Shown: one piece after another, positions 1 to 14,805 of the stretch
How the letters are laid out: every line of letters begins with the position of its first letter
Numbering within the stretch: position 1 is the first letter of the stretch
Origin: a virus
Length of the DNA stretch: 33,537 bases
Virus record (IMG/VR): IMGVR_UViG_3300008120_000187
Location: 1-33,537 of that record
Strand: one strand, 5' to 3'
Notes under the pieces: model-generated
The model's database searches: none
What the model saw: the letters and a program-made list of their open reading frames with translations, nothing else
Told to the model about the DNA's origin: nothing
Made by a program: the position numbers and the translations under genes

Positions 1-556
1 CAACAAAATTTGATGGGTATATGAGGGCGTCTCCAGCATTCAGCGACAACTCTTCGCCAATCAATGTAAAAACAAACTCCCCACCCTCAAAGTCATTGTT
101 AAGAACCACCGATGTACTCAAAGTATTGTCTATTGCAGATGACGAAATAACCTCAACTGAATTGTTTTTATAAGAAGCAGCACAATCAGAATGTGGACCC
201 ATTGCAGCATTTGGTGGATACTTAATGTAATGGAGTTGCTTATGCTCTGTTATGCATTCAACAACCGAAGGAAATATTTTGCAGTATCCAACAACTGATT
301 CATACACTTTTCTTTTCAACATTTTTGTAAAATTAACAGAATCTATATTTTCTGAATATCCGATTGGATGAGTAAAAGAACCTGCGTCTTTATCGTATTC
401 ATGGCCGCCAGTGTCGTAAAGTTTCCCATCTCTAGCCGTAAAGCCTTGAGGGGTAATGGAGTTTTCCACCAAAGATACATCGCATGCTTTTATTTCATTA
501 GCATCAAGCATTCCGCGAATAAGAACTATGCCATTTCCTAGGTGGGAAGCATTCAT
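1..556 (-). CDS. 2OG-Fe(II) oxygenase, partial (C-terminus beyond left edge)
   Basis: The frame is open from an ATG at 556 to the window edge (185 codons), so the 3' end is missing. The start overlaps the stop of the upstream gene as ATGA. The protein begins with HLGNGIVLIRG, matching the N-terminal LGGGV..F.N motif of the next two genes. It carries the first half of a double-stranded beta-helix: the metal-binding H122-S-D124 (MGPHSD), then LNNDFEGGEF and GDALIYPSNF, which are typical of prolyl-4-hydroxylase-like oxygenases. The distal His and the 2OG-binding Arg would lie just past the edge. Such enzymes use Fe(II), O2 and 2-oxoglutarate to hydroxylate a substrate; the substrate is unknown. 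It is the last of three tandem paralogues. Confidence 0.85.
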   Translation of the reverse strand, partial: MNASHLGNGIVLIRGMLDANEIKACDVSLVENSITPQGFTARDGKLYDTGGHEYDKDAGSFTHPIGYSENIDSVNFTKMLKRKVYESVVGYCKIFPSVVECITEHKQLHYIKYPPNAAMGPHSDCAASYKNNSVEVISSSAIDNTLSTSVVLNNDFEGGEFVFTLIGEELSLNAGDALIYPSNFV

Positions 557-1413
557 GAGTGCATTCTTTCAACTAGGTGCCACGCTGGTGAATCCTGGCT
601 AACACCAGATGCAGCCATGTAATTTCTGAAATCATCCCTCAGTGTAGGCATGTAAACATTCGTGGATACAGCGGCGAGTTCAGGTTGGGTAATCGGGTCG
701 GCAATAAACTCGTTTGCTGCTGGGTTTGGCGAGCCGTGAGCATACCAACCTAGATATGAATATCTATTTCCTTCTGTTACTGGCTCAACCTCATGTGCAG
801 CCATGAAATTTGATGGGAACATTAAAATGTCTCCGCGGTTTGGGGTATAGCGAATATCCAAATAGTTGAAATAATGTTGGCCACCAGAAAATCCATCATT
901 TAGATATATGAGCGCAGTAACGGTATTTCTGGTTGCAAGTTGGTCTGATGGATGGTCAAATCCGTATGCATAATCTGCACTAGTATCAGAATGAGGGCCC
1001 AAAAAACGGCCGCCGTGTTCAATAGAGTAAGCGACTAGGTGGCCTTTGACTTTCCACCATATATTTTTATACGCTAAAGGAAATTCCACCAAATATTTAA
1101 GTAGATACCTATCTCGTGAATTTTCAAGAAATTTAAGAAACTCAATTACTTCGCTTCTTTCATCCCTGTGTATTGATGCTCCACGACGAGGCATGTTCAT
1201 GGTGTCTTCGTAGTTGAAAAAATAACCACTTTTATTTAGGAATCCGCGTTTCCCAGATTCTGGGTCAATTGCTTCTTTGTACATATCTGCTCGCTCGGCG
1301 GAAACTGAATCTTCAGCAAAACTGCAAGCCCAATCAAAATCAAAAGTCAAGGCGTTCCTGAAGAGCACGACTCCACCACCAAGGTGCTCTAGGGGAACAT
1401 CATTATAAATCAT
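553..1413 (-). CDS. 2OG-Fe(II) oxygenase, prolyl-4-hydroxylase-like
   Basis: A 286-aa protein with a full Fe(II)/2-oxoglutarate oxygenase signature: H141-S-D143 (GPHSDTS), YLNDGFSGG, GDILMFPSNF, the distal H207 (AAHEVEPV) and R217 (GNRYSY) for the 2OG carboxylate. The N-terminus has HLGGGVVLFRN, shared with both flanking genes, and a WW.VKGHLVAY segment aligns with WWRTQGHVVAY of the neighbour at 1403-2320, so the two are clear paralogues. A C-terminal extension of about 60 residues (VYMPTLRDDFRNYM) also has a counterpart there (VWMPEIFRDYAEYL). It overlaps its upstream neighbour by 11 nt. The metal and cosubstrate residues are intact, so it is probably active. The substrate is unknown. Confidence 0.9.
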   Translation of the reverse strand: MIYNDVPLEHLGGGVVLFRNALTFDFDWACSFAEDSVSAERADMYKEAIDPESGKRGFLNKSGYFFNYEDTMNMPRRGASIHRDERSEVIEFLKFLENSRDRYLLKYLVEFPLAYKNIWWKVKGHLVAYSIEHGGRFLGPHSDTSADYAYGFDHPSDQLATRNTVTALIYLNDGFSGGQHYFNYLDIRYTPNRGDILMFPSNFMAAHEVEPVTEGNRYSYLGWYAHGSPNPAANEFIADPITQPELAAVSTNVYMPTLRDDFRNYMAASGVSQDSPAWHLVERMHS

Positions 1414-2320
1414 CTCTGTTTTTTTCCTTTATTACTTCTTGAATCGTTCCATTGCTTTTATTCGTCCTGTTTAGCGGAAGAGTAAGCATGTGGTGGTTAT
1501 CTAGGTCTTTCCCATATTTTGTTTTGAGATATTCAGCATAGTCTCTGAATATCTCTGGCATCCATACTTGAGATGATTTGAGTTTGAATGAATCAGAATC
1601 CGACGGACATATTCCCCTGCTTGGCTCTTCTGAACCGTGAGAAAAATACGATATATATGCATACCGAGAGCCACCAGATAATTCTTTAACCCTATGGGTC
1701 GCCATATAGTTTGATGGAAACATAATCACATCTCCAGATTTTGGTTTATGCGAAATCCCCAAATATGGGAATTCAATTTCACCACCCACATATTGGTATT
1801 GTCCGCATTCCTCTATTGATTCGGCAGAATCGTTCAGATATATGATTGCACCAAGAACATGCCTTGTTGCTACCTGCATATCTGGTACTGCGCCAGGCTG
1901 GTAGTTGACATCATTGTCGGAATGAAAGCCCATGTCGGAGCCGCTCCTGTAGGCAACAACATGACCCTGAGTTCTCCACCACAGCGAAGGAAGAATCATC
2001 GGGAATTGCTCTATGTACCTAATCAGGCAGGTGTAAACAGCATCTTCGCATTTGTTGAAGAATATGTACCTCTCATCATTTTCATCATCTGGCGCAAACC
2101 CCATAATCCTATTCACGCGATAAATATCGCTTAATGGATATCTATGTCCAGAACGGTTTATCGCGTACAGTTCTTTTCCATCGTCATCATGAATGACAGT
2201 AAAGTCCTCATGCACGACCTTTTCATGAAGTTCAGCCAAGTATGGAATTAAAAAATCATGGTTTATTTCAACCATGTTCTTAAACACGAGAACTCCTCCG
2301 CCGAGATTCTCAATTTTCAT
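1403..2320 (-). CDS. 2OG-Fe(II) oxygenase, prolyl-4-hydroxylase-like
   Basis: A 305-aa protein and the first of three tandem paralogues. The N-terminal motif is NLGGGVLVFKN. Catalytic residues visible are H133-S-D135 (GFHSDND), YLNDS, GDVIMFPSNY, the distal H209 (ATHRVKEL) and R219 (GSRYAY). Between the first metal motif and YLND it has a longer loop than its downstream paralogue, and the C-terminus is a basic, polar tail. It starts two bases after the glutathione peroxidase stop, with no strong Shine-Dalgarno, which suggests translational coupling. The family reaction is 2OG-dependent hydroxylation. The protein or other target is not indicated by the sequence. Confidence 0.9.
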   Translation of the reverse strand: MKIENLGGGVLVFKNMVEINHDFLIPYLAELHEKVVHEDFTVIHDDDGKELYAINRSGHRYPLSDIYRVNRIMGFAPDDENDERYIFFNKCEDAVYTCLIRYIEQFPMILPSLWWRTQGHVVAYRSGSDMGFHSDNDVNYQPGAVPDMQVATRHVLGAIIYLNDSAESIEECGQYQYVGGEIEFPYLGISHKPKSGDVIMFPSNYMATHRVKELSGGSRYAYISYFSHGSEEPSRGICPSDSDSFKLKSSQVWMPEIFRDYAEYLKTKYGKDLDNHHMLTLPLNRTNKSNGTIQEVIKEKNRDDL

Positions 2321-2321
2321 A

Positions 2322-2936
2322 TTACAAAACCGCGTCTATTGCTTCCCTGATTGTCCAGGCTGCACCGTGGACAAGAGGCTTGTCGGCAAGGGGCCAGTCT
2401 TGCCAGTTAAACCGCGAGATGAACACACCATCCCTGCTGACCAAAAACTTTTCCCAGTTGTGTGGAATTCGCATCATCGCCTGCATTGCCTTGTTCTGCC
2501 CACGCTGAGCGGTTTCAGAAGAGTCTGCAGTATTGTCGCTAAAGTTGCGTAATTCTGGGCCCTTTAGATATGTGTAAATTGGATGTTCGTCAGGACCGTT
2601 GACATCAATTTTTTCAGTTATTGGGAATGTCACAAATGGGTAATTTTTAGCAATGAATTCAGCAATCTCCTCGTTGCTTGCTGGCTCCATTCCGCCAAAT
2701 TGATTGCACGGGAAACCGACTACAGTAAATCCCCTGTCTTTGAATTCGTCATAAACTTTTTGCAATTCCCACAATTGGCGAGACGCTCGTGCGTATGACC
2801 AAAATTTGCTGCACTGCGGCTCGTATCCACATTTTGATGAAATGTTTACAAATAAAGAAATCTTTCCCCTGACCGATTCAAGCAAGTTCGCTTCACCAGT
2901 CAACGATGATATGTTCATGTCGTACGCAAAACTCAT
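2322..2936 (-). CDS. Glutathione peroxidase-like protein, divergent active site
   Basis: A 204-aa thioredoxin-fold peroxidase. The GPx landmarks are present: FVNISSKCGYEPQ with the peroxidatic Cys36, VVGFPCNQFGG with Gln79, ITEKIDVNG, and a C-terminal EKFLVSRDG. Two things are odd. The usual catalytic WNFxKFL is HNWEKFL here, so the tetrad Trp is replaced by His159 while Asn160 is kept. There is also an insertion of about 15 residues (CSKFWSYARASRQLW) after the active-site PQ. There is no in-frame UGA, so it is a Cys enzyme, not a selenoenzyme. The family reduces peroxides with glutathione or thioredoxin. In this operon it could detoxify peroxide formed by uncoupled oxygenases (inference). 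The start overlaps the upstream stop (ATGA) behind an AGAGG Shine-Dalgarno. Confidence 0.88.
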   Translation of the reverse strand: MSFAYDMNISSLTGEANLLESVRGKISLFVNISSKCGYEPQCSKFWSYARASRQLWELQKVYDEFKDRGFTVVGFPCNQFGGMEPASNEEIAEFIAKNYPFVTFPITEKIDVNGPDEHPIYTYLKGPELRNFSDNTADSSETAQRGQNKAMQAMMRIPHNWEKFLVSRDGVFISRFNWQDWPLADKPLVHGAAWTIREAIDAVL

Positions 2937-3259
2937 TGGTGCCTCTTTGCGGTTAAGGTTGTTGTGACAAATTCTCCGACGCTTACCGTTCCAGCAAACA
3001 GTTCGGAGTTATCCATTTTATTAAAACCCATTGAAACAGATGTGGTCATTGGGGTGTCAATGTCAAAACAGGCACTAAATGAGGACTCGTCAATAGAGTA
3101 GGTGCTGAATTTTGCGCTGCCTCGTTGAGTGGATATTTCTGCTTCTCCAGATACCTCGTCTATGAGCAGCAAGTAGTCTTCTTGACCAAATGGCGTATCT
3201 ACGCTTATGACAAAACTATGAGCGTATTGCTTATCGTGAATAATGTTCTGTGTGTTCAC
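2933..3259 (-). CDS. Small hypothetical protein
   Basis: A 108-aa protein I do not recognise. It starts at GTG preceded by GGAGAAGTAA, a good ribosome-binding site, directly after the stop of the oxygenase at 3260. The sequence alternates polar and hydrophobic residues (SFVISVDTPFGQEDYLLLID, then AGTVSVGEFVTTTLTAKR) and so looks like an all-beta domain. No signal peptide or membrane segment is seen. It sits between an oxygenase and the glutathione peroxidase and overlaps the latter by 4 nt, so it is very probably co-translated with it. It could be a substrate or accessory subunit of the neighbouring enzymes, but nothing in the sequence proves that. Confidence 0.75.
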   Translation of the reverse strand: MNTQNIIHDKQYAHSFVISVDTPFGQEDYLLLIDEVSGEAEISTQRGSAKFSTYSIDESSFSACFDIDTPMTTSVSMGFNKMDNSELFAGTVSVGEFVTTTLTAKRHQ

Positions 3260-3940
3260 TTACTTCTCCAGATAGAACCCGTTGTTCAGCAATCCTAGTG
3301 GTTTTTTGTCTTCGGACCAGACATTGACCACCAGTACCCTGCGAATGCCGTTTTCTGCAGGAGTGGTGTTATGAAGGGCGTGTCCAGCGTCAAATATGAT
3401 TAACCTGTTTGGCTTAAACGCAATTCTCTCGCGTTTTTCAATTGGGGAAGCCATGGAATCAAGCATCCCTCGCTCAAGTTGGGATTTGCTCCCATCTTTA
3501 AGCAAGAATTCATGCAACTCCAAAAATCCACCATCTATTGACTCGTGGTCTGGGTAATACACGCAGCCAATAGTCGGGCCATTGAATATTTGCTGTTCTT
3601 TGTAAAGATGAGAATCTTCATCAATATGCAAGCCTAAATACTGGCCTGGTTTAAATGTTTTGGCCCAATACTCAAAACCAGATATTTCATCTTCTGGAAG
3701 CGGTAAATTGTCTTTCCATATCTCCTGTATCACTCGCTTTTTGAGTGTATTCGCTGGAGACCTCCACCACCCATCCCAGAACATATACGGCGAAAAATAT
3801 GGGGACTCTGGGTCATGGTACTGATGAATTGAGTAATTTACTTTTTCGTCATCACCCATTGATTCTGGGAAAAAAGACTTATCGCTCCTTATCTCGTCCA
3901 ACAATGACTTATCGGTAATGAAATTATCTAATACTTTCAT
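3260..3940 (-). CDS. 2OG-Fe(II) oxygenase
   Basis: A 226-aa single-domain oxygenase, not closely similar to the 1-2320 trio. Visible residues are H105-I-D107 (LGLHIDEDS), IGCVYYPD, an insertion rich in charged residues, NRLIIFDAGHALHNTTP with the distal His (probably H190), and GIRRVLVVNVW with the 2OG-binding Arg (R200 or R201). The N-terminus (MKVLDNFITDKSLLDEI) is the usual opening of prolyl-4-hydroxylase-like phage enzymes. The start codon overlaps the stop of the methyltransferase-like gene as ATGA, implying coupling. The substrate is unknown. Confidence 0.87.
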   Translation of the reverse strand: MKVLDNFITDKSLLDEIRSDKSFFPESMGDDEKVNYSIHQYHDPESPYFSPYMFWDGWWRSPANTLKKRVIQEIWKDNLPLPEDEISGFEYWAKTFKPGQYLGLHIDEDSHLYKEQQIFNGPTIGCVYYPDHESIDGGFLELHEFLLKDGSKSQLERGMLDSMASPIEKRERIAFKPNRLIIFDAGHALHNTTPAENGIRRVLVVNVWSEDKKPLGLLNNGFYLEK

Positions 3941-4662
3941 TGTTTTGTCACAATCGTGAACCCGTAGTGGAGAGGGATGTGATGGACAAAAACAGAGCCA
4001 TTTGACTTCAACTGTTCATGAAGGTCGTGCATTGGGTGTCCATACATATCGTTTTCGTACAAAAATGCCCAATCAGATGTACCGTTTATCAAAATAACAC
4101 CATCGTCTGAAAGCAGATTTATAAACAACTCTATTTGAGATAGTGGCATGTCAATTTGGTTTACCCAAAGTTCTATCAAATCAAATTTACGACTGCTACC
4201 AGCAAAAATTTCTTGCATAGAGATGACATCGTATTCAAGTTTTGCAAATCTTGAGTTTATTGTTTTGAAGCATTTCTCAAAAGTATTTAAAGATATCCCA
4301 TTTAGGAGTGTGGTTTTTATGTTGCTTTCACAGCACTGGACTACACGGGTGCTTGAATAGTCTGGTCCACACAACAAAACAGTTGACGGATTCTTTAGAC
4401 CATATATAAGGTCTTGAAATATTTGCGAGATTGTGTATGTCCTAAAAGAACGCTCATTTGTCTGCTCAAACATTTCCCACGGGAATATTGCTAAGTCAAC
4501 ACCACCAGTCGCTATGTTGCGCCTGTCAAAATCCATTGACGCAGCAAAATCTGCCATCAACTTTGATGAATACCCATAATATTTACCAGGAAAGTCATCT
4601 GAATGGCTTTTGGTTTTTGAAAAGATATCGGCCAGATGAGCAAGATTGTAGTTAGCGTCCAT
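3937..4662 (-). CDS. Class I methyltransferase-like protein
   Basis: A 241-aa protein beginning at the ATG at 4662; a TTG two codons upstream is possible but has poorer support. The core looks like a Rossmann methyltransferase: STVLLCGPDYSS as a degenerate motif I, KTTLLNGIS as the second strand, YDVISMQEIF, then FDLIELWVNQIDMPL and SDDGVILINGTSDW, as in SAM-dependent enzymes acting on small or protein substrates. The canonical GxGxG loop is replaced by CGPDYSS, so SAM binding is uncertain and the enzyme may be altered or only fold-related. It overlaps both neighbours slightly and belongs to the oxygenase island operon. Confidence 0.6.
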   Translation of the reverse strand: MDANYNLAHLADIFSKTKSHSDDFPGKYYGYSSKLMADFAASMDFDRRNIATGGVDLAIFPWEMFEQTNERSFRTYTISQIFQDLIYGLKNPSTVLLCGPDYSSTRVVQCCESNIKTTLLNGISLNTFEKCFKTINSRFAKLEYDVISMQEIFAGSSRKFDLIELWVNQIDMPLSQIELFINLLSDDGVILINGTSDWAFLYENDMYGHPMHDLHEQLKSNGSVFVHHIPLHYGFTIVTKQ

Positions 4663-5125
4663 TTTCAATAACCTGCATTTTGTTAAAAGACCTTCGGACG
4701 CCTCTCAAAAGCGCAATATTTTTTCTTTTTATGTAAGTCTGGCTCGCCGTATCGCATGGTTGACCATGTTTATATTTGTAGACATCTCGTATTTTTTCAA
4801 CAATTGCATCTATTGTCGTTGATGCGATTTCTGAATCCGAAAACCCAAGAATGTACATGTAGGCCATAAATTCCGACTTGTTGAATTCAAGGTCTAAAGT
4901 ACGGTCATACTTGAACTCCGCATTTGCGGCGCATGTATCGGATGGAGAATTCCATGAAATTGTTTCCCCATTTGGGAGACTCTCAACAGGTGGTCCATAT
5001 AAATGGCAGTGTGCGCTATCCCCATCAACCACCCACGACTCACTCTTGGCATCCCAGAAAACAGTTGAATTGTCAAGAGATTTAAAGTCAACTGGGTCAA
5101 TCCCAATTATTGGTTCATTCTGCAT
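4652..5125 (-). CDS. Hypothetical protein
   Basis: A 157-aa soluble protein that I do not recognise. The first half is rich in Trp, Asp and Pro and contains several Cys and His residues (AHCHLYGPP, SDTCAANAEF). The second half is a predicted helical segment (NKSEFMAYMYILGFSDSEIASTTIDAIVEKI) followed by a basic tail. It overlaps the upstream small gene by 11 nt and the methyltransferase-like gene by 11 nt, consistent with tight co-translation. It has no signal peptide or membrane segment. A role with the adjacent oxidative enzymes is only a guess from position. Confidence 0.72.
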   Translation of the reverse strand: MQNEPIIGIDPVDFKSLDNSTVFWDAKSESWVVDGDSAHCHLYGPPVESLPNGETISWNSPSDTCAANAEFKYDRTLDLEFNKSEFMAYMYILGFSDSEIASTTIDAIVEKIRDVYKYKHGQPCDTASQTYIKRKNIALLRGVRRSFNKMQVIENGR

Positions 5126-5309
5126 GACCAGTCAACTTTCTGTATGCGTCAACTTCATGCATAAGGCAACAATACGAATCGTACAGTGCAGAAGACTTTT
5201 CAACTGGAATCTCTTTTAACGAAAAAGCATCAACACCAAGTATTGACGACAAAGTTTTAATTGAGCGTTCTAGGTACTGTGTTGCTTGTTGTCTTGAAAA
5301 GTCATTCAT
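5115..5309 (-). CDS. Small helical hypothetical protein
   Basis: A 64-aa, mostly helical, acidic/basic mixed protein (FSRQQATQYLERSIKTLSSIL, then ALYDSYCCLMHEVDAYRKL). It starts two bases after the upstream oxygenase stop, with an AGGGG element eight bases before the ATG, and overlaps the next gene by 11 nt. Its spacing and strand fit a real operon member rather than a chance frame. No family is recognised. Confidence 0.62.
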   Translation of the reverse strand: MNDFSRQQATQYLERSIKTLSSILGVDAFSLKEIPVEKSSALYDSYCCLMHEVDAYRKLTGHAE

Positions 5310-5311
5310 AT

Positions 5312-5872
5312 CTAACCCCTATAAACGCTCATGTCGGGTATCTCGGTCGTATTTGGCTCAATAGGAGCAAAATTGAAACTTACAGCAACTCTTGGTTCTT
5401 CTGACTGATGCATTGTCGTAAAGTGCGGAACATATGAATTGAAGAATACTACCTTGCCAATTTCTGGTTTTATTTTAACCATTGACTCAATTCTATTAAA
5501 TGCGAAAGAGTGCAGTACGAGTTCGGCTGAATCATCGTCAGATGATGTGTATACAACTCCACTCCAATATTCTTCTGGCCGCATATGGGTATTTGAATGG
5601 TGTGAGTGGTAGGAGACAGATTCGCCCTTGAATGTTGAGACCGCCCATATGTCAATCAGTCTTACTTTGACTGGAAGTGTATTACTGGCAAGGAGTTCAA
5701 TTTTATTGCGCAACGCAGCACATTCTCCTGTTTGCGGGTAAACACGAAAGCCGTACCCTTTTTCAAAAATTAATTTTTGTTGTAATACATCGTTTGTTAC
5801 AGTTCTGTAATCAATGCCGCCGATGCTGTCAACATAGGCGTGGGTTGCCATAAGCGTTATGGATTCGCTCAT
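5312..5872 (-). CDS. Putative 2OG-Fe(II) oxygenase of the Oxy_5 type
   Basis: A 186-aa protein resembling the 2OG-FeII_Oxy_5 group rather than the classical prolyl-hydroxylase group. The first metal motif is a His cluster, YHSHHSNTH (residues 88-96), instead of HxD. It is followed by WSGVVYT, the family's SGvyY signature, then GKVVFFNSYVPHF with the distal H150 and EPRVAVSFNF with R161. The start overlaps the DUF6065-like stop as ATGA. Family assignment is from memory of the motif order. If the His cluster does not bind iron the protein could be inactive or have a different metal geometry. Confidence 0.75.
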   Translation of the reverse strand: MSESITLMATHAYVDSIGGIDYRTVTNDVLQQKLIFEKGYGFRVYPQTGECAALRNKIELLASNTLPVKVRLIDIWAVSTFKGESVSYHSHHSNTHMRPEEYWSGVVYTSSDDDSAELVLHSFAFNRIESMVKIKPEIGKVVFFNSYVPHFTTMHQSEEPRVAVSFNFAPIEPNTTEIPDMSVYRG

Positions 5873-6570
5873 TTTGGTTCTTGTAGTTTTGGTAGTCCCA
5901 AAAATTCTGGACCAATACGGTTACCGTCAGCATCAAGGCCAGTTTTGATTCCCTTTGTCCATGTCCACGGATTTTCCTGTTGGTTTTTCATTTTCATTTC
6001 ACCGTATTTTTGGCGCTGAGAGACAAATTCACCATCTTCAAATAAATCAGTAAATTCTACTTCCGTATTTTGAAGTAGTGAATTATCAAATATATGGAAA
6101 AACATAAACGGACTTCCAGCCTCAAATATCACTGGTTCATTTATTTTGTTAATTTTCCAATTCATCTCAAATGGGTCTGGCCACCAACTTGACGGGATTA
6201 TTGCCGACAACGCTTCTGCTCCATCAACAAAATAATTCGGAGAACCACTAATCCAAAGGTCGTACCCAAGGTCTGTTTGAAATGCGCAATTAGTTCTGAA
6301 TGAAACCATCCCAGAGATATTGCCACTCGCTACTGTCATTCCGTCGTACTCCCCACCAGAAATGATTTGTGCTGGGTTTGTAGTGCCATCCCACTGAACA
6401 ACAACATCATGGGGTAAGCACAATTCCCAGCCGTAGACATTTGCATAGGTCATTGGCAGGCACTGATAGGCATGCTTGTTGTATGTTGCGTCCATCCAAT
6501 CTCGCTTAATACGAGATTGCTTTACTATTGGTAGTTCGTTAGAACTTCTTTTAATAGTTAGGCGTGGCAT
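5869..6570 (-). CDS. DUF6065-like protein
   Basis: A protein of about 233 aa if started at the ATG at 6570; an ATG at 6621 would overlap the upstream gene by about 70 nt and is less likely. The N-terminal half has YQCLPMTYANVYGWELCLP and VVVQWDG, followed by a Trp/Pro-rich middle (IIPSSWWPDPFEMNWKIN) and a C-terminal RQKYGEMK and NPWTWTKGIK. I associate this pattern with DUF6065, a family of unknown function. The predicted mix of strands and conserved aromatics suggests a beta-rich fold. It lies between two oxygenases and overlaps both, so it probably works with one of them. No catalytic motif is evident to me. Confidence 0.68.
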   Translation of the reverse strand: MPRLTIKRSSNELPIVKQSRIKRDWMDATYNKHAYQCLPMTYANVYGWELCLPHDVVVQWDGTTNPAQIISGGEYDGMTVASGNISGMVSFRTNCAFQTDLGYDLWISGSPNYFVDGAEALSAIIPSSWWPDPFEMNWKINKINEPVIFEAGSPFMFFHIFDNSLLQNTEVEFTDLFEDGEFVSQRQKYGEMKMKNQQENPWTWTKGIKTGLDADGNRIGPEFLGLPKLQEPK

Positions 6571-7210
6571 CGTAAGGATTTTTCTTATCCGTGTAATCGT
6601 GGAATGTGTCATTGTAGTCAAACATTGTTACTGCGGCATACTTAGTGCCTTTTGTGACTGGCTTTGAGGCGTGAGCATAAATAAATGTTGACGGAAACAA
6701 GATGATGTCGCCATATGTTGGCTTAAAAGACATCTCTAGGTACGGAAACCATAGTTCTCCACCTTCATACTCATCATTAAGGTACATAACCGACGAGACC
6801 GTGCACACATACGAGAAGCCATGGTCGCTGTGCACATTGAAGTGTTGATTCTCCCTGTACCTCACATAATTAATTGCTTCCATGAAATTCATGCTTATGT
6901 TGTATTTGCTTTGGTAGTCCTGCAGACATGGGATTAAGCCGTTTTTTGTATCTTCGTAGATGTTCTTCATTTCTGAAAATTCATCAGGAAGATGTTTGAT
7001 GTGCTCATTACTAATCTTGCAGTCAACGCAGTCTCTGTACTCTGGCATTTTCTGCCCATATCCGACTAGAGCGTCCATCCACATAAACGGCGCTTGCGTG
7101 CTATTGCCTATAGTCTCTTCAAGGCGTTCGGGTAGTCTGAGTTCTTTTCCAAGCGCGTTCCTGTAGGCGATAATCCCAAATTTTCTATCGCCGATGTATT
7201 CAAAATTCAT
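6551..7210 (-). CDS. 2OG-Fe(II) oxygenase, prolyl-4-hydroxylase-like
   Basis: A 219-aa oxygenase with an AAGGGG Shine-Dalgarno just before the ATG. Motifs are H127-S-D129 (NVHSDHGF), MYLNDEYEGGEL, YGDIILFPSTF and the distal H180 (YAHASKPV). In GTKYAAVT the usual 2OG-binding Arg is a Lys (K190), a position where other phage members also vary; it may still bind 2OG. The N-terminus EYIGDRKFGIIAYRNAL is a diverged version of the LGGGV..F.N motif seen in the genes at 1-2320. It overlaps the DUF6065-like gene by about 20 nt. Confidence 0.87.
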   Translation of the reverse strand: MNFEYIGDRKFGIIAYRNALGKELRLPERLEETIGNSTQAPFMWMDALVGYGQKMPEYRDCVDCKISNEHIKHLPDEFSEMKNIYEDTKNGLIPCLQDYQSKYNISMNFMEAINYVRYRENQHFNVHSDHGFSYVCTVSSVMYLNDEYEGGELWFPYLEMSFKPTYGDIILFPSTFIYAHASKPVTKGTKYAAVTMFDYNDTFHDYTDKKNPYDATPNY

Positions 7211-7219
7211 TGCTTCCCC

Positions 7220-7846
7220 TTAAAGAAGTTCTTCAACTGAATAAAATGTAGGTGTTGTAAATCTATCGTTTCCGATGACTGTTTTTACCCCATGTAAATA
7301 GTGAATATCTCCTGGGTGCATGACGGCTAAACCAGGTCGTGGCTTAACTACCAAGTCGTGTTCTGGGTAGTACAACTCCCCACCGTCAAAATCGTCGTTG
7401 TAATAGAAGAGGCCATTGAGGTCATAGTCGGGAAACGGATTGGGGGACCCATCAAGCATCTGTTTATCTGCATGTGGGCGCTGCTCAAGCCCATCAAACC
7501 ACCTAACTATGACAGGACTTCTTTTGCTTAGTTTGACTTTATAAAAATCTTCTGAGTATTTCTGAAGTTTTACGATATATGAGTCAATAATATCGTGAAC
7601 TTCTGGACTGTATTTTTTGATTAGGTGCGCAGGGCATTGGCGATTATTCCAATATTTAGCGTCGTAAATGCAGACTCCGTTTTCATCGTACTGATTTTCT
7701 GCTGCTGGGTTTTCCCATTCGGTTATTGATTTCGCAAATCCGTAAATTTTCTTCAAGTCTTCAAGTTCAATGAAATTATCAAGAATCAAAATATTGTTTT
7801 TTGTGGTTCCAAAATAGCCAGGCTGAACTTTCCACGGGGAGGTCAT
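7220..7846 (-). CDS. 2OG-Fe(II) oxygenase, prolyl-4-hydroxylase-like
   Basis: A 208-aa oxygenase with H125-A-D127 (RPHADKQ), LFYYNDDFDGGELYYP, a PGLAVMHPGD strand, the distal H185 (YLHGVKTV) and R195 (NDRFTT). All Fe and 2OG ligands are present. The N-terminus ILILDNFIELEDLKKI is the typical family opening. The region around residues 45-75 (NPAAENQYDENGVC) may form a substrate lid. It has an AGGA element eight bases before the ATG and is separated from its neighbours by about 10-17 bases. The substrate is unknown. Confidence 0.88.
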   Translation of the reverse strand: MTSPWKVQPGYFGTTKNNILILDNFIELEDLKKIYGFAKSITEWENPAAENQYDENGVCIYDAKYWNNRQCPAHLIKKYSPEVHDIIDSYIVKLQKYSEDFYKVKLSKRSPVIVRWFDGLEQRPHADKQMLDGSPNPFPDYDLNGLFYYNDDFDGGELYYPEHDLVVKPRPGLAVMHPGDIHYLHGVKTVIGNDRFTTPTFYSVEELL

Positions 7847-7863
7847 TGTTGAATCCTAGCCGA

Positions 7864-8526
7864 TTATAGAATCTTGAAAAAAGCATTTATAGAGAATCTC
7901 TCCCCCTTGGTCACTGGCTTGATTTCATGCACCATTGACTTGGTTGAGGTGTTGCTTAAAATAACTGCAGAACCACAAATTGGTTGCCACGAAACCCCTA
8001 GTTCCTCAAAATGTATAGAACCACCTTCAAAATCATCATTTAAAAACATAAAACAACTGAAGTCAATATCCACCAATTGAGTACCATTCAATACTGGACC
8101 GTCCTGGTGCGGTGGCATTGTTGCACCAGTTGTACCACGACGAAATATGGTCGCCATGAGGTCAAGTTTTTCTATGTCAAACATGCTGCTTATATGCTCG
8201 GATACTAAAGAGACTTGCCTATCAGCCAGCGCCCATAGTTCCGTGTCTTCGCGATAATTTATTGCAAAACCATTGTTTTTAGTTGGTTTTGGGTCTGCTG
8301 AAAAAGACGGAACATAATAAGGGGACCCATTACGAAGTTTTGTAGGTGCTTCTTCCCACCCCATATTCCCAACAGAGTTATCTGCTGTTGATATTTGTTT
8401 CCCGTCTTCAGTTATTTCAAAATTGAATTTTCCATCTGATTTTATTGCTAAATCAACAATATCTTTAGCGTCAATATCGGAAATAAAATTTGGGAGAATT
8501 GTAAGACTTGTTGTTTTACGCTGCAT
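7864..8526 (-). CDS. 2OG-Fe(II) oxygenase
   Basis: A 220-aa oxygenase started at the ATG at 8526, which follows AGAGGGCGT; an in-frame TTG at 8568 is possible but unsupported. Motifs are H140-Q-D142 (MPPHQDGP), FMFLNDDFEGGSIHFEEL, a distal H200 (MVHEIKPVTKG) and R210 (GERFSI). The loop after HQD (VLNGTQLVDID) is longer than in its neighbours. This is the first gene after the PPFF-tailed fibre protein, 42 bases downstream of its stop, so it is transcribed with the fibre genes. That position makes it the best placed of the eight to act on fibre prolines, which is an inference only. Confidence 0.87.
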   Translation of the reverse strand: MQRKTTSLTILPNFISDIDAKDIVDLAIKSDGKFNFEITEDGKQISTADNSVGNMGWEEAPTKLRNGSPYYVPSFSADPKPTKNNGFAINYREDTELWALADRQVSLVSEHISSMFDIEKLDLMATIFRRGTTGATMPPHQDGPVLNGTQLVDIDFSCFMFLNDDFEGGSIHFEELGVSWQPICGSAVILSNTSTKSMVHEIKPVTKGERFSINAFFKIL

Positions 8527-8568
8527 ACGCCCTCTTTGTAATAGTTGAAGCGATTTTATCGCATTCAA

Positions 8569-9546
8569 CTACTTAAATGCAGGTGGGAAAAACGGAGGAA
8601 AGTATGGTGGAAAGAACGGTGGGAAAAACGGCGGAAAGAACGGTGGGAAAAACGGCGGAAAGAACGGTGGGAAAAACGGCGGAAAGAACGGTGGGAAATA
8701 TGGAGGCGCTACTGGCGTTACGGAGTTTGAAGAAGCAGAAGTACTGGAGCCATATACGGTTGATGCTGTGACCGTAAATGTATAAGCGGTTCCGTTGGTC
8801 AAACCAGTCACCGTTATTGGTGATGCTCCAGTTGCGGTAAGTCCACCAGGACTTGATGTTGCAGTGTATGTGACCGACCCAGATGTGCCAGTGGCTCCAG
8901 CGGTATAGGCAACTGTTGCTTGCGCGTTTCCAGCAGTTGCTGTTCCAATTGTGGGCGCTGACGGCTTGATTCCAGGAGTAATGGAGTTTGATGCAGCAGA
9001 GGTGCTTGAACCGTATGCGTTCGTAGCCGTAACGGTAAATGTGTACGCGGTCCCAAGGGTGATTCCAGTTGGCGTGATTGGAGAAGCACCACTACCGCTA
9101 GCCCCAGAAGGTGTGGAGGCAACAGTGAATGTGACTCCACCAGAACCAGCCGAGCCAGCAGTATAAGGAACAGAGACGGCACCTGTTGTGTTATTAAACG
9201 ATGCTGTACCAATTGTTGGCGCACTTGGCTTAATTCCAGGAGTGACAGAACTTGAAGCAGAGGAAACACCAGATTCAACGCCATTTGACGCAGTGCCCTT
9301 GACGGTAAATGTGTAGGCGGTTCCAGCCGTGAGCCCGCTAACAACAATCGGGGAGGAACTGCCAGTTGCGGTAATGCTTCCAGGGTTAGATGTGACCGTA
9401 TAAGAGATTGTGCCTTTACCTATGTAGGTGGAACCAGTAAACGGAACAGAGACATTGCCATTCGTATTGTCAAATGTTGGTGTTCCAACAGTTGGCGTAG
9501 TTGGTTGTTTACCACCACTATCAAGAGATTGATTTTGTGCTGCCAT
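8569..9546 (-). CDS. FnIII-repeat fibre protein with PPFF tandem tail
   Basis: A 325-aa surface or fibre-like protein. After a short N-terminus come three fibronectin-III-like repeats of about 88 residues (near 18-103, 104-191 and 192-277). Each contains GTAYTFTV and ends with SVTP or SITP, joined by GIKPSAPTIGTA. The last 45 or so residues are almost purely Pro and aromatics (repeats of PPFF with two PPYF) ending in PAFK. There is no signal peptide. FnIII/Ig-like domains on phage structural proteins are commonly thought to aid weak surface binding. The Pro-Phe tail is unusual and its translation would likely rely on EF-P. It directly follows the large fibre gene. Confidence 0.82.
   Translation of the reverse strand: MAAQNQSLDSGGKQPTTPTVGTPTFDNTNGNVSVPFTGSTYIGKGTISYTVTSNPGSITATGSSSPIVVSGLTAGTAYTFTVKGTASNGVESGVSSASSSVTPGIKPSAPTIGTASFNNTTGAVSVPYTAGSAGSGGVTFTVASTPSGASGSGASPITPTGITLGTAYTFTVTATNAYGSSTSAASNSITPGIKPSAPTIGTATAGNAQATVAYTAGATGTSGSVTYTATSSPGGLTATGASPITVTGLTNGTAYTFTVTASTVYGSSTSASSNSVTPVAPPYFPPFFPPFFPPFFPPFFPPFFPPFFPPFFPPYFPPFFPPAFK
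8575..8706 (-). repeat. In-frame tandem repeat encoding PPFF units
   Basis: The plus strand shows back-to-back copies of a 24-base unit (AACGGTGGGAAA plus AACGGCGGAAAG), near-perfect in the middle and degenerate at the ends, where TTC becomes TAT or flanking codons vary. In the minus-strand gene each 12-base half-unit encodes Pro-Pro-Phe-Phe. The near-identity of internal units suggests recent expansion by slippage, so copy number may vary between related phages. Confidence 0.9.
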
Positions 9547-9549
9547 AAA

Positions 9550-12333
9550 TTATGCCGAAAGGTCTCCTACAGCCACCCATGAGTCTGATGCTCGCTTGAT
9601 TAGCGTAACATACGACCATTGGGCCCGAACCTTCAATCCTGGGGTGCCGTTAACCGTGACCCCAGCACCTGGTGTGATTGTGGTCTGCCCAGAGCCAGTT
9701 TGGAGCACATTTATCTGAGTTCCAATTGGATAGTTGACAGACGATGCTGGCGGGATGGTAAGTGTGTTTGCTGAGCCAACTCCCATTTCAACAATTTTTG
9801 ACCTGTCGCCTAACACAAGCGTATAACTTGCTGTCTGGGCATTCGTGACCACATCAGCCAATTTTGACAGGGCAATACTGGCGGCGCTATTGATGTCTCC
9901 ATCAACAATTGTTCCATCGGCAATCATTGAACTGGTAATCGTTCCAGATGGAGCACTGAAGGTTCCAGTGAAGGATGCGTTATTTACTGGTGCATAATAT
10001 GAACCATGTTGGCCATCAAGGAGGTCTGCGTTCAGGTTGGTTACAGCAGTTGTTGAAGCAACGGTTAGCGGAGCGGTGCCAGTTGCAACAGTGCTTTCGT
10101 ATGTGTTGGCAACAACATCTGCTGCCGCGTACGAGGCGTGTGCCGTATTGATTGGGTTAGTCGGCTCAACAGTCAAACCTTTAAAGAACTTAAATTTCTG
10201 TCCGTCAGATGCGTCGGCAAAAAGACCAGCATGTTTATATGTTCCGTCGTTGTAATTACCAGCAAATCCAAGGTCTGGGTTAGATACGGTGCTTCCGTCG
10301 TTAAGGTAAATCAACGGGTCTTCAATTGCCAAACTCGTTTGGTTCACAGTTGTTGTAGTGCCTGTAACCTGCAAGTTTCCACCGACAACAACATTCCCAG
10401 TTGTAGTGACCTTGGCAAATGTGACTTCGGAAGCCGTTCCAACTGCCTGGCCAATAGCGACGGTTGGAGATGAACCTTCTGCTGGGGTATGCGTAACCGT
10501 GACACCAGTTCCAGCAGTAATGTCGTTTACATAGTTTCCAGATGTATCTGTTCCCAAAGCAACGGAGTTTGCGGCGATAGTTGCTGTGAGGGTTCCGTTT
10601 CCAAGGTTTGTAAGCGTAACTGAACCAGTTAAATCGCCACCGAGGGTTATTACTGGAGATGCGGCTGAACTTGCCTTGTTATCCAGTTGAGACTGAATTG
10701 CAGAAGTTACACCATCTACATAGTTCAATTCTGTAGTTGTTAGCGTTGCTCCATCAAGGATGTTTAATTCTGATGCAGATGCAGTAACTCCATCAAGAAT
10801 GTTCAATTCTGCTGTTGAAGATGTTACACCGTCAAGAATATTAAGTTCAGCAGTTGAAAGTGTTGCTCCATCCAAAATATTTATTTCAGCAGCGCTGGCA
10901 GTAACACCAGTTAGGTCGGTGGGAGCAATGTTAATTGCCGCAGTTCCGTCAAATGGGTTTCCAGCAATATTCCTTGCTGTTGCGAGTTTTGTTGCAGTTC
11001 CAGCATTCCCAGAGACATCACCAGTGACATTTCCAGTAAGGTTTGCCGTTACTGTTGCAAAAGTGACATTTGATGTAGTCCCTACAGCCTGGCCAATTGC
11101 TACTGTTGGAGTTGCGCTTTCGCCAGAGTTGTTTGTTAAAGAGACACCAGTTCCAGCAACCAATGATGCTACATACGCACCATTCGTATTTGTGCCGAGA
11201 GTCAATTCGGCATTGTTGGTTGTTATTCCGAGAACTCGTCCATACCCATCTCTTGTTATTGAAGATACAAACGCAAGTGTTGGGGAACCAGAAACATCGT
11301 TTTGAGTAATCGGAGCAAGGTCAATGCTGTCTGAACCAACAAAAATACGACCAGAATCAGCAGTAACAACATTTAGCGTATTACCAGTAGTCGTCAAACC
11401 GTTTCCAGCGTTGAACGACGCAGTTCCGCTGTATTGAACAAATGTAATGCTGTCGGTTCCAATTATGTGAGCGCCATTTGTCCCAGTACCAGTTGATGAA
11501 ATTGAAAATTGCTGGTAGTAGTTATTTGTTCCTTCGCGAACACCAACGGATTCTCCAACTTTTATTTGTCCGACATGAGAGCCGTCCATATCATTTGCGC
11601 GCGTCAAAATCCAATGGGCCGAACCGCTTCCCTGTGCTGTTACATCATAAACACCGTTATGAAGTGCGTTGGCTTGGTTCTTTACAAGAATACGGTCGCC
11701 AGTTGCAGCCTCTGTCCCATCAACGCTTAGACGAGCATTTGTGGATGACTCAAGTACTGCGCCAATTCCATATCCACCGTCAAGGTCAAGCGTTCCAGCA
11801 GTATACGAAGGAGTATTTGGGAGCACTGCAGCCGTAGCAAGACGAGCGGTTTTGTGCCAGTGCTCTTCTCCAAGTCGCGCTTCAAGCGATGTGGCATTGA
11901 TAATGTCGTAGTAGTCTGTTCCATTTTCGGTTACTTGCCACTTGTCGGTTGATTCGTTCCAGCGCAAAACAACATTTGTTGAATCTCCGCGCTCAACCTC
12001 TATCCCAGAGTTCAGGGATGGGGAGCCAGTTACGCCAGAGTTAAGAATGACGATATTGTCCTCAACTGACAGTGTTGCCGTATTAAGGGTGGTCGTGTTG
12101 CCACTGACGGTAAGGTCGCCAGAAACCGTCAAGTTGTTGAAAGTGACATTGTCTGTTGTCGCGACCCTTTGCCCAACTGCGTAGGCAAGCGAGGTCCATG
12201 CGGTTGTGCCATCGCCAATCTTGAATTTTCCTGTATTTGTCTCGTAGCCAACTTCTCCACTGGACAGCGTCGGGTTAGCAGATGTCCAGTTAGACGCCGT
12301 ATCACGACGGAAAAGTATCTTTTTGTAAGCCAT
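9550..12333 (-). CDS. Large tail fibre with Mtd-like N-terminus
   Basis: A 927-aa fibre. The N-terminal 50 residues (LFRRDTASNWTSANPTL, GEVGYETNTGKFKIGDGTTA) match the major-tropism-determinant N-terminal trimerisation domain. The middle has typical fibre shaft motifs (NLTVSGDLTVSG; LTGNVTGDVSGNAGTATKL), an AGTG/PTVAIGQAVGT segment repeated twice, and five 13-residue AELNILDGVT-type repeats. The last 95 residues (SYTLVLGDRSKIV to WVAVGDLSA) form a tip domain shared with the 12520-14805 fibre. It probably mediates host adsorption. No C-type-lectin variable domain or reverse transcriptase is seen, so the Mtd resemblance is confined to the base. Confidence 0.86.
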   Translation of the reverse strand: MAYKKILFRRDTASNWTSANPTLSSGEVGYETNTGKFKIGDGTTAWTSLAYAVGQRVATTDNVTFNNLTVSGDLTVSGNTTTLNTATLSVEDNIVILNSGVTGSPSLNSGIEVERGDSTNVVLRWNESTDKWQVTENGTDYYDIINATSLEARLGEEHWHKTARLATAAVLPNTPSYTAGTLDLDGGYGIGAVLESSTNARLSVDGTEAATGDRILVKNQANALHNGVYDVTAQGSGSAHWILTRANDMDGSHVGQIKVGESVGVREGTNNYYQQFSISSTGTGTNGAHIIGTDSITFVQYSGTASFNAGNGLTTTGNTLNVVTADSGRIFVGSDSIDLAPITQNDVSGSPTLAFVSSITRDGYGRVLGITTNNAELTLGTNTNGAYVASLVAGTGVSLTNNSGESATPTVAIGQAVGTTSNVTFATVTANLTGNVTGDVSGNAGTATKLATARNIAGNPFDGTAAINIAPTDLTGVTASAAEINILDGATLSTAELNILDGVTSSTAELNILDGVTASASELNILDGATLTTTELNYVDGVTSAIQSQLDNKASSAASPVITLGGDLTGSVTLTNLGNGTLTATIAANSVALGTDTSGNYVNDITAGTGVTVTHTPAEGSSPTVAIGQAVGTASEVTFAKVTTTGNVVVGGNLQVTGTTTTVNQTSLAIEDPLIYLNDGSTVSNPDLGFAGNYNDGTYKHAGLFADASDGQKFKFFKGLTVEPTNPINTAHASYAAADVVANTYESTVATGTAPLTVASTTAVTNLNADLLDGQHGSYYAPVNNASFTGTFSAPSGTITSSMIADGTIVDGDINSAASIALSKLADVVTNAQTASYTLVLGDRSKIVEMGVGSANTLTIPPASSVNYPIGTQINVLQTGSGQTTITPGAGVTVNGTPGLKVRAQWSYVTLIKRASDSWVAVGDLSA
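10696..10890 (-). repeat. Five tandem 39-bp repeats (ELNILDGVT units)
   Basis: Five consecutive in-frame copies of a 39-base unit encode 13-residue repeats of the form A-E-L-N-I-L-D-G-V/A-T-x-S/T-x. The last copy is diverged (ELNYVDGVT). This is a known shaft repeat of phage fibres. It probably forms a trimeric beta-structure, and copy number sets shaft length. Confidence 0.92.
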
Positions 12334-12512
12334 CAGGCATCGCCTCCATCTACTGTGTTGATATCGCCAGAAACCGCGGTTGACGACAATCCACCGTCAA
12401 TTATCGCATATAAATTGCTCTTGTTCCATGTGGTACCACTCCAGACAAAGAGTTTGCCAACAATGAAGAATTGGTCATTTGTTGATGGTGATACTGGGAA
12501 TGAAATAGCCAT
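12333..12512 (-). CDS. 59-aa fibre-associated mini-protein
   Basis: A short gene filling the gap between two large fibres. The ATG at 12512 has a TAGGAG Shine-Dalgarno in front, and the stop TGA at 12335-12333 shares its last base with the ATG of the next fibre (TGATG), indicating coupled translation. It reads FPVSPSTNDQFFIVGKLFVW, then SGTTWNKS, then a polar tail. The VWSGTTW pattern resembles the short Y/W-x-G-x-x-W elements found in many fibre proteins (VYTGSAW and YYSSAW occur in its neighbours). It may be a small fibre-tip or chaperone-like component. Confidence 0.72.
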   Translation of the reverse strand: MAISFPVSPSTNDQFFIVGKLFVWSGTTWNKSNLYAIIDGGLSSTAVSGDINTVDGGDA

Positions 12513-12519
12513 AAAACTC

Positions 12520-14805
12520 CTACGATGCGCTCAGGTCGCCAGAAAGTATCCACTCATCGGCCGCACGCTTCACGAGCGTCGCCACCGCATATTGTGCCGA
12601 TAGGTAGAAACCAGGGTTGGAGCGGATTGTGACCCCAGATATGCCAACTACCTGTGTTTTTCCAGAACCATATTGGTAAACAGATATCGTAGTTCCTACT
12701 GGAAATGGAACTGAGGAGTTCAGGGGGACAGTAAGAGTATTTGCCGAAGAGGAATTTCGCTCAACTGTCTTATTCATGTCGGTTAAAACGAGTGTGTAAT
12801 TTGAGTCGGAAGACGCTGAGATTCCAACTAATGATGTATTTTCCCACTCTGTTCCGTTATACACAAGAACCTGACCATAGGTTTCATCGGTAATCAGAAC
12901 ATCAATCAAATCCCTGATTTCGCTAACGAGTGGTTCGTCATTGAACAACTGAATCCAAGCCGATGAATAGTAAATATAGGCATCAAGCGTAAGGGAGTTG
13001 TACCAAAGGTCACCCTGCTCCGCTGGAGTTGGTGCTGTATCGGAGACGGTAATACTGCTGCTCGGTGCTGCTGGTGCTGATGTAGCCCATGAAGTTCCAT
13101 TGAAAGAAATCAGGTCGCCAGTTGCTGCGCCAGTCGTTGACAATTTTGAAAGTGCTATTGCTGCAGTTGAACTAATGTCACCATCCACAATTGTGGAATT
13201 CGCAATCATCGTGCTCGTAACAGTTCCAACATCGGATGTTGTTACAACTGGGACACTTGAGCCGTTCGTAACGCGACCATATGTGTCAACCGTTACCGAG
13301 TTGAATGTTCCAGTTGCAGTCACAACACCGCTGCTTAACGCGACTGTTGGCGTAGCGCCTTCCAGCCCACTGTTATTCGTAAGTGTTATCCCAGTTCCAG
13401 CAACCAGTGATTCAACATATCCACCAGTCGTGTCTGTTCCTAGAGCGATTGAGCCACTAAGTGCCACCGTTCCAGTTGCGTTTGGAAGGGTGATTGTCCT
13501 ATCTGCTGTTGGGTCTCCGACCTGAAGAGTTGTTTCGTAGTCGTTTGCAGTGTCACCTTCAAAAACAATTGCACCGCCAACAGTTATGCTTCCAGCAACG
13601 CTTAAATGACCTGGGTCAGCAATTGAAGGGGCAGCAATAACTTGCGTTGAGCCTGCTATTTCTATTTTTCCGCCGCCTGCTGTGGCGTTTGAAGTTACTC
13701 TTACGAACCTGGTTGCTTCGTGGCTTATTAATTCAACAGTTCCAGTATTCGGCGCAATCAGTCTTATTCCGTTTGCTGTTCCGTTATTATCCGCTAATAG
13801 GGCAGTTCGTGCTCTCGCGTCAGTAAAATAGATGTTTGTTGTTCCCTCTGCAACATCGTCAGAATCGCCAACGGTATCTGTGCCAAGGTTGATTTGGTCA
13901 TTTACCCATAGTGTTCCGTTGTACTTTAGAAAATCCCCCGAAGTTCTATCAACAATAGAGACATCGTGCAGTTCGTCTAATTCATAACCGTTTTGTGTTG
14001 CGACATAGATGATTCCGTTTTCTGTAGCGCGGACTACTACGCCAATAAACACAAGATGCTCTGGTGCTGATGGTTTTGTCTTGGTAAATGCACCATCTTC
14101 ACCCAGCCACAGAACATCACCAGCGGCATAGCCAGAACTAAGGTTGATGCCGTCCACATAACCACGAGTTACTACAGGACCATTCTCTGCTGATGCGATG
14201 TTTGCTGCTACCAGGCCAACAGTCTTTGAGGAGGTTGTATCGGAATCGTTGTCTGCTCGTTTTACTGTGGCATGGTCGCCAGTTGCGCCAAACAGATAAA
14301 CCACTGTCCCAGTGGTGAGGGTTGTTGCTTCAGCGTTTCTTACATATGTGACTGTTGAGGCGTGTTTGTTTACCCAGTTTGTTCCGTCATATACGAGTGA
14401 TTGGAACTCTTCTGGGTTGGTGATGACGACATCTGTAATGTCATTGATTGATGCTATTTCTACGGAGACTTGAATCCATTGCCCACCAGAACGATAGTAA
14501 AATTCGTTGTTAGTTGTATCAACGGCGATAGCACCGTCCGCTATTGATACGGTAGGGACGCCTGCTGTGGTTAGTGTGATAACTCCAGAAAGAGCCTGAA
14601 ATACATCGTCTGTTTTTAGAACATTCGCACTATCTCGGTAAAGGGTCGTGTCACCAGTTGCTGAGCCAGAAGCCCATGTGATTCTTCCGCCTGCATCAAT
14701 GCGGATTCGCGGGTATGAGTCTGTGCCAACTCGCGCGGAGATTGCCTCATCACTAGCGCTTGAGAACTCTGTTCCGCGTAGCGGTGTCCCTACAAATCTT
14801 GTCAT
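12520..14805 (-). CDS. Large tail fibre protein
   Basis: A 761-aa fibre. The N-terminus (FVGTPLRGTEFSSASDEAIS) and early YYRSGGQWIQV lead into NVLKTDDVFQALSGVITL. The middle contains SSGYAAGDVLWLGEDGAFT and IYVATQNGYELDELHDVSI, widely shared fibre modules, and one copy of the ALGTDT..YV..AGTG..PTVAL segment also found in the 9550-12333 fibre. The last 95 or so residues (NYTLVLTDMNKTVERN to DEWILSGDLSAS) are the same tip domain as that fibre's. It likely assembles as a trimer and contacts the host surface. It starts 55 bases after the upstream fibre stop. Confidence 0.84.
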   Translation of the reverse strand: MTRFVGTPLRGTEFSSASDEAISARVGTDSYPRIRIDAGGRITWASGSATGDTTLYRDSANVLKTDDVFQALSGVITLTTAGVPTVSIADGAIAVDTTNNEFYYRSGGQWIQVSVEIASINDITDVVITNPEEFQSLVYDGTNWVNKHASTVTYVRNAEATTLTTGTVVYLFGATGDHATVKRADNDSDTTSSKTVGLVAANIASAENGPVVTRGYVDGINLSSGYAAGDVLWLGEDGAFTKTKPSAPEHLVFIGVVVRATENGIIYVATQNGYELDELHDVSIVDRTSGDFLKYNGTLWVNDQINLGTDTVGDSDDVAEGTTNIYFTDARARTALLADNNGTANGIRLIAPNTGTVELISHEATRFVRVTSNATAGGGKIEIAGSTQVIAAPSIADPGHLSVAGSITVGGAIVFEGDTANDYETTLQVGDPTADRTITLPNATGTVALSGSIALGTDTTGGYVESLVAGTGITLTNNSGLEGATPTVALSSGVVTATGTFNSVTVDTYGRVTNGSSVPVVTTSDVGTVTSTMIANSTIVDGDISSTAAIALSKLSTTGAATGDLISFNGTSWATSAPAAPSSSITVSDTAPTPAEQGDLWYNSLTLDAYIYYSSAWIQLFNDEPLVSEIRDLIDVLITDETYGQVLVYNGTEWENTSLVGISASSDSNYTLVLTDMNKTVERNSSSANTLTVPLNSSVPFPVGTTISVYQYGSGKTQVVGISGVTIRSNPGFYLSAQYAVATLVKRAADEWILSGDLSAS

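Follow-up and report, generated by a model that had tools for sequence, protein, structure and literature searches.

A phage island of 2-oxoglutarate oxygenases beside an (F/Y)FPP-repeat fibre protein, its candidate substrate

Virus-encoded prolyl hydroxylases are already known from the chlorella virus PBCV-1, whose prolyl 4-hydroxylase (P4H) hydroxylates virus-encoded proline-rich repeats, as Eriksson reportedly showed in 1999. In collagen, P4H acts first and a prolyl 3-hydroxylase (P3H) then modifies the proline preceding 4-hydroxyproline. 2-Oxoglutarate (2OG) oxygenases occur widely in aquatic phages, and they have so far been proposed to take part in DNA repair or to control the level of 2OG. 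T4-like cyanophages carry several PF13640 or PF13759 genes beside tail-fibre genes, S-SCSM1 being reported with 24 2OG genes (PMC9602691). A Baltic Sea study found viral P4H genes to be abundant and called their viral use cryptic (PMC9301287), a structure-based survey noted that phage 2OG oxygenases resemble the human prolyl hydroxylase EGLN3 (PMC12774648), and the viral function of these enzymes is said to lack specific investigation (PMC9602691). We analysed a 33,537-base IMG/VR virus record (IMGVR_UViG_3300008120_000187) of an uncultured aquatic phage, the whole of which is called the window below, and in particular a minus-strand island of eight oxygenase genes, ox1 to ox8, at its left end. 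Directly upstream of ox8, between the fibre genes and the island, a gene encodes fn3 domains followed by ten tandem (F/Y)FPP units and then AFK. We lean, with moderate confidence, to the view that the island oxygenases hydroxylate the prolines of this fibre tail and form a late-gene cassette for fibre modification.

A sequence-only reading of this DNA had proposed a dedicated oxidative-modification cassette and had named no substrate, because the repeat and its tie to the island went unseen. Third codon positions differ freely among the (F/Y)FPP units; the repeat is therefore not a fresh DNA expansion. The tail, half of which is Phe or Tyr, would be very hydrophobic.

A search with ox6 alone found 80 relatives in which the island recurs, each with 2 to 12 oxygenases within the retrieved stretch, and this recurrence supports the proposed cassette beside fibre genes. 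A repeat-type open reading frame (ORF) was found near ox6 in 54 of the 58 of these loci with enough upstream sequence. Locus L038, on the same contig as L082, has the repeat DNA and no called ORF, and L078, L080 and L081 may be missing the fibre region since they start at or close to contig ends. IMG/VR was also scanned for the repeat alone, unselected for oxygenases, and 47 whole contigs were taken among the matches listed, as were all repeat-bearing contigs, loci and clusters counted below; the 39 control contigs were drawn by a random 15-mer. PF13640 genes were present in 42 of the 47 repeat-bearing contigs and in just 3 of the 39 random viral contigs, so that the oxygenase density is far above chance. 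Four or more PF13640 genes were carried by 33/47 and 1/39 contigs, respectively, and the sole random contig with an oxygenase cluster (15 PF13640 matches) was also the sole random contig found with the repeat. The PF13640 matches were concentrated around the repeat, with 116 of 164 lying 10 kb or less from it (44 expected; 0 of 20,000 random placements). Per 100 kb, 2OG genes numbered 30 at repeat loci, 1.6 around collagen-like (GPT) fibres and 0.1 at randomly chosen loci; the profiles behind these densities derive in part from the island itself, which makes the PF13640 counts over whole records the fairer yardstick. Finally, among 25 sheath relatives the eight with the repeat carry 7, 12, 7, 1, 12, 7, 7 and 7 oxygenases and the 17 without it carry at most three; in the relative with a single oxygenase, the repeat sits at the contig end. 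The Pfam sheath model, run on the 47 repeat-bearing contigs, was uninformative (1/47, below cut-off).

All eight oxygenase ORFs exist on the minus strand and all are 2OG oxygenases by profile (Table 1). Five of them are above the curated Pfam cut-off, ox8 having been searched as the ORF span 7864-8568; ox4 and ox7 fall below it, and ox1, which is cut by the contig end, has an intact relative that passes it. The HxD...H...(R/K) signature, attributed in this or a close form to all of them, is present in seven; the exception is ox5, an HxH variant. The ligands are invariant in alignments of relatives of ox2 (H141, D143, H207, R217; 17 relatives), ox4 (H105, D107, H190, R200; 13 aligned), ox5 (H89, H91, H150, R161), ox6 (H127, D129, H180, K190) and ox7 (H125, D127, H185, R195). 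For ox1, ox3 and ox8 the signature was read by sequence, and in the window ox1 ends before the distal His. The enzymes are not all alike, as had been remarked: they have diverged to mostly 24-38% identity where BLAST aligns them, and ox4 and ox5 give hardly any alignment to the other island oxygenases. Several substrates, which had been considered likely on that ground, are possible.

We then compared the enzymes with solved structures. The predicted model of ox6 (predicted local distance difference test, pLDDT, 88.6) has a prolyl-hydroxylase fold: all of its top 50 Foldseek matches in the PDB are prolyl hydroxylases, with algal P4H-1 first, and the matches include the PBCV-1 enzyme (5c5t), PHD2 and a Bacillus P4H. 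The best match of the ox6 profile to the PDB is likewise a P4H (E 9e-10). Prolyl 3-hydroxylase 1 (P3H1) came first for the profiles of ox7, followed by P4H at E 2e-5, and of ox8, and this match makes both putative peptidyl prolyl 3-hydroxylases. The profile of ox5 matched two uncharacterised proteins, and those of ox2 and ox4 gave no PDB match. Thus, the closest solved structure is a prolyl hydroxylase for ox6 and partly for ox7, and not for ox2, ox4 or ox5. The matches obtained point to peptidyl prolyl hydroxylases rather than to oxygenases of DNA or of small molecules. The animal collagen enzymes (P4H, P3H1) and algal P4H-1 have in common with the island enzymes, besides these fold and profile matches, the HxD...H...(K/R) ligands, with the R/K ten residues past the distal His in ox6. 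They differ in substrate, which is collagen GXY or SP repeats as against the proposed (F/Y)FPP, and the identity is about 17-20%.

The repeat co-occurs with, and adjoins, a core of ox6, a DUF6065 gene and ox7. DUF6065 was detected in 36 of the 47 repeat-bearing contigs (35 strongly) versus 1/39 controls, and in 33 of 35 loci among the matches listed the gene immediately upstream of DUF6065 belongs to the ox6 family. The AlphaFold2 model of DUF6065 (pLDDT 80.5) has a dUTPase-like beta fold (Foldseek match to dUTPase, E 7e-5). Its alignment contains many conserved aromatic residues, which would suit a proline-rich ligand. Two queries found no DUF6065 in 50,697 records of cultured phages. The planctomycete Aquisphaera insulae has a homologue (L406).

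We infer as follows which substrate is used, where it is hydroxylated, how the enzymes share the work and what DUF6065 and glutathione peroxidase do. During infection, the island's 2OG/Fe(II) enzymes would act in the host cell on the tail prolines of the adjoining fn3 protein. The 4-hydroxylase would be ox6, and ox7 and ox8 would 3-hydroxylate the remaining proline in each PP pair, in the way that collagen P3H1 acts next to 4-hydroxyproline, if by analogy the collagen P4H/P3H pairing carries over to F-F-P-P. The other oxygenases may modify other residues of the same or adjoining fibre proteins. Once hydroxylated, the repeat would become a stiffer, less hydrophobic (more soluble) rod or adhesive tip; DUF6065 could hold or present it, and glutathione peroxidase could clear peroxide from idle oxygenase cycles. 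More tentatively, a widespread phage module consisting of a repeat-tailed fibre, a P4H-like enzyme, DUF6065 as a new repeat-handling partner and a P3H-like enzyme might write dihydroxylated Phe-Phe-3Hyp-4Hyp repeats, some perhaps glycosylated or sulfated, onto virions.

Several observations weigh against fibre-tail hydroxylation by the island. Most repeat-bearing loci (95/118) belong to one cluster at 40% identity with island genes removed, that is, to one gene-sharing phage group, and the association counts are therefore not independent; 5 of the 16 repeat-bearing clusters have a 2OG gene in the retrieved stretch. A few repeat-bearing contigs with ample sequence (G041, G073 and G079) have no PF13640 gene, and in G043 the repeat found sits about 30 kb from the island. 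Many of the repeat-free sheath relatives may just end before the fibre region. With ox2 and ox4 giving no PDB profile match, and ox3 reckoned along with them, up to half of the island enzymes may act elsewhere. Lastly, the (F/Y)FPP pattern is absent from the four phage records searched, S-SCSM1 and three others, which, together with the lack of any DUF6065 match in the phage records, sets the T4-like cyanophages apart; because such 2OG-rich cyanophages lack the repeat, it cannot be the substrate of every phage 2OG oxygenase.

The oxygenases could instead hydroxylate other virion proteins, on other fibres or at Asn, Asp or Lys side chains, the repeat being a separate fibre module in the same exchangeable region. 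The oxygenases that show no clear prolyl-hydroxylase match, the repeat-bearing contigs without PF13640 and the cyanophage oxygenase clusters that adjoin repeat-free fibres all agree with it. We nevertheless regard it as unlikely, given that ox6 and ox7 match prolyl hydroxylases and that oxygenase density is some 20-fold lower at the collagen-like fibre loci. EF-Tu is a known substrate of bacterial P4H, and P4H-EF-Tu complexes are among the structural matches of ox6; together with the glycosyltransferase and sulfotransferase genes adjoining some related islands, this could indicate enzymes that alter the host, acting on glycans or proteins of its envelope (superinfection exclusion) or on its translation factors, EF-Tu for example. 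The tight link of the island to a specific fibre repeat, and its place inside the fibre region, make such a role quite improbable.

For cyanophages, a function in shifting cellular 2OG levels or nitrogen signalling has been proposed (PMC3037559), and the presence of so many 2OG-consuming enzymes would be in keeping with such a function here. However, consuming 2OG does not need eight diverged, order-conserved enzymes beside one fibre gene, and each oxygenase family is separately conserved, so that we give this explanation very little weight. We consider least probable of all a modification of DNA bases by TET/JBP-like oxidation in which DUF6065 would serve as the dUTPase-like partner. The dUTPase-like fold and weak Tet_JBP matches (E 0.005-0.08) speak for it, but the best of these scores 16.6 bits against a curated cut-off of 34.9, ox6 resembles peptidyl hydroxylases in structure, and the methyltransferase-like label given to 3937-4668 found no support. 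Among 12 relatives of that protein no Pfam match reached E <= 0.01, and there was no PDB match either; DNA modification was set aside as every Tet_JBP match was sub-threshold.

The proposed hydroxylation of the fibre tail resembles the PBCV-1 case, in which the P4H, vCPH, is likewise virus-encoded; this enzyme ranks among the best structural matches to ox6. PBCV-1 is, however, a eukaryotic virus with other repeats, whereas the present locus belongs to a bacteriophage and has (F/Y)FPP beside the enzymes, at least eight oxygenases and a DUF6065 partner. Oxygenase-rich phages being known as well, what is new is the repeat, the number of enzymes and the DUF6065 partner; no report of the repeat, its oxygenase link or the DUF6065 partnership was found in the literature searched, most subscription journals lying outside that search. 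A repeat that predicts where oxygenases are located gives phage hydroxylases a specific, testable substrate, the prolines of their own fibres. If true, bacteriophage fibres would undergo post-translational hydroxylation by a system that the virus itself encodes, the repeat would be new and biomaterial-like, and DUF6065 would gain its first functional handle.

Table 1. Genes of the oxygenase island and the adjoining fibre genes in the window.
Feature	Position	Strand	Evidence and remarks
ox1, 2OG oxygenase	2..556	-	Contig end cuts before distal His; PHROG 61 (2OG oxygenase) E 3e-8; weak Pfam E 0.09; intact relative L003:9599-10357 (PF13640 E 6e-8)
ox2, 2OG oxygenase	553..1413	-	PF13640 E 7e-13; invariant ligands
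ox3, 2OG oxygenase, 31% identity to ox2	1403..2320	-	PF13640 E 6e-8; HSD...H...R
Glutathione peroxidase, Cys type	2322..2936	-	PF00255 E 1e-29; found in many related islands
Small protein, function unknown	2933..3259	-	No Pfam or PHROG match
ox4, 2OG oxygenase	3260..3940	-	PF13640 below cut-off (E 2e-4); PHROG 274 E 6e-8; invariant ligands
Protein of unknown function (earlier label methyltransferase-like)	3937..4668	-	No Pfam or PDB match
Protein of unknown function	4652..5125	-	Pfam and PHROG profile searches
Small protein, function unknown	5115..5309	-	Pfam and PHROG profile searches
ox5, 2OG-FeII_Oxy_5 type, HxH replacing HxD	5312..5872	-	PF13759 E 2e-10
DUF6065 protein, dUTPase-like beta fold, probable start 6570	5869..6570	-	PF19541 E 5e-44; core partner of ox6
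ox6, prolyl 4-hydroxylase-like 2OG oxygenase, core gene	6551..7210	-	PF13640 E 1e-11; P4H structure matches
ox7, prolyl 3-hydroxylase-1/P4H-like 2OG oxygenase, core gene	7220..7846	-	Pfam below cut-off (E 3e-4); PDB profile P3H1 E 1e-7
ox8, 2OG oxygenase adjoining repeat gene	7864..8526	-	PF03171 E 2.5e-5; PDB P3H1 E 1e-5
fn3-domain fibre-type protein, C-terminal (F/Y)FPP x10 tail, proposed substrate	8569..9546	-	fn3 E 1e-9; kept across relatives
Ten (F/Y)FPP tetrapeptide units	8581..8700	-	Read directly; third codon positions vary synonymously from unit to unit
Fibre protein with Mtd_N domain	9550..12333	-	PF18454 E 4e-13

The minus-strand genes of the window run from neck and sheath through tape measure, baseplate and four fibre-type genes to the island, in which the glutathione peroxidase and DUF6065-like labels given earlier both held (Table 1). 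The island is truncated by the window edge; the near-identical contig L003, whose ox6 is 100% identical, adds three more PF13640 genes, which brings the oxygenases to eleven. A megablast search with positions 1-9600 found no near-identical DNA of the island in cultured phages. The tail sheath (29599-31074) shares 37% identity with those of Brevibacterium and Gordonia phages, which hints weakly at an actinobacterial host. An assignment through genome contigs was dropped, because there were just three DUF6065 loci, in a Verrucomicrobiales metagenome-assembled genome (MAG), a Chitinophagaceae MAG and Aquisphaera insulae, and MAG binning is unreliable.

The related islands vary in their accessory genes. 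Minimal versions of the locus exist. In L141, the repeat protein is followed directly by a single PF13640 gene, after which come one gene of unknown function and a glycosyltransferase of PF11397, a family that includes the Dictyostelium enzyme that adds N-acetylglucosamine to the hydroxyproline of Skp1. As a general partner, this hydroxyproline-type glycosyltransferase was rejected: only 3 of 26 repeat-bearing contigs carry it (0 of 24 controls), and it is thus an accessory at most. In L100 (3297-6294), also a minimal version, the repeat protein and one PF13640 gene are accompanied by an APS kinase, a sulfotransferase and an aspartyl (Asp/Asn beta-) hydroxylase. L092 has this set beside a repeat protein and one 2OG oxygenase as well, and fibre sulfation is possible in both.

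Some repeat proteins end with an intein/HINT-like domain (L071:7195-8679, L076:1963-3342, L154:8063-9304 and L141:2140-3861). These ends, with for example VVHN, matched Intein_splicing at E 9e-5 (L154) and 0.002 (L141), both below the curated cut-off, and suggest that the repeat protein may process itself. In L409 (G097:135000-154192), two repeat-bearing proteins flank an island of at least ten oxygenases, with a PF11397 glycosyltransferase beside one of them. Among the sheath relatives without the repeat (G140/G142), L408 carries two tryptophan-halogenase genes (1712-3148 and 11699-13207; PF04820 E 9e-99 and 1e-100) that adjoin 2OG oxygenases and fibre-type genes and perhaps halogenate fibres or host molecules.

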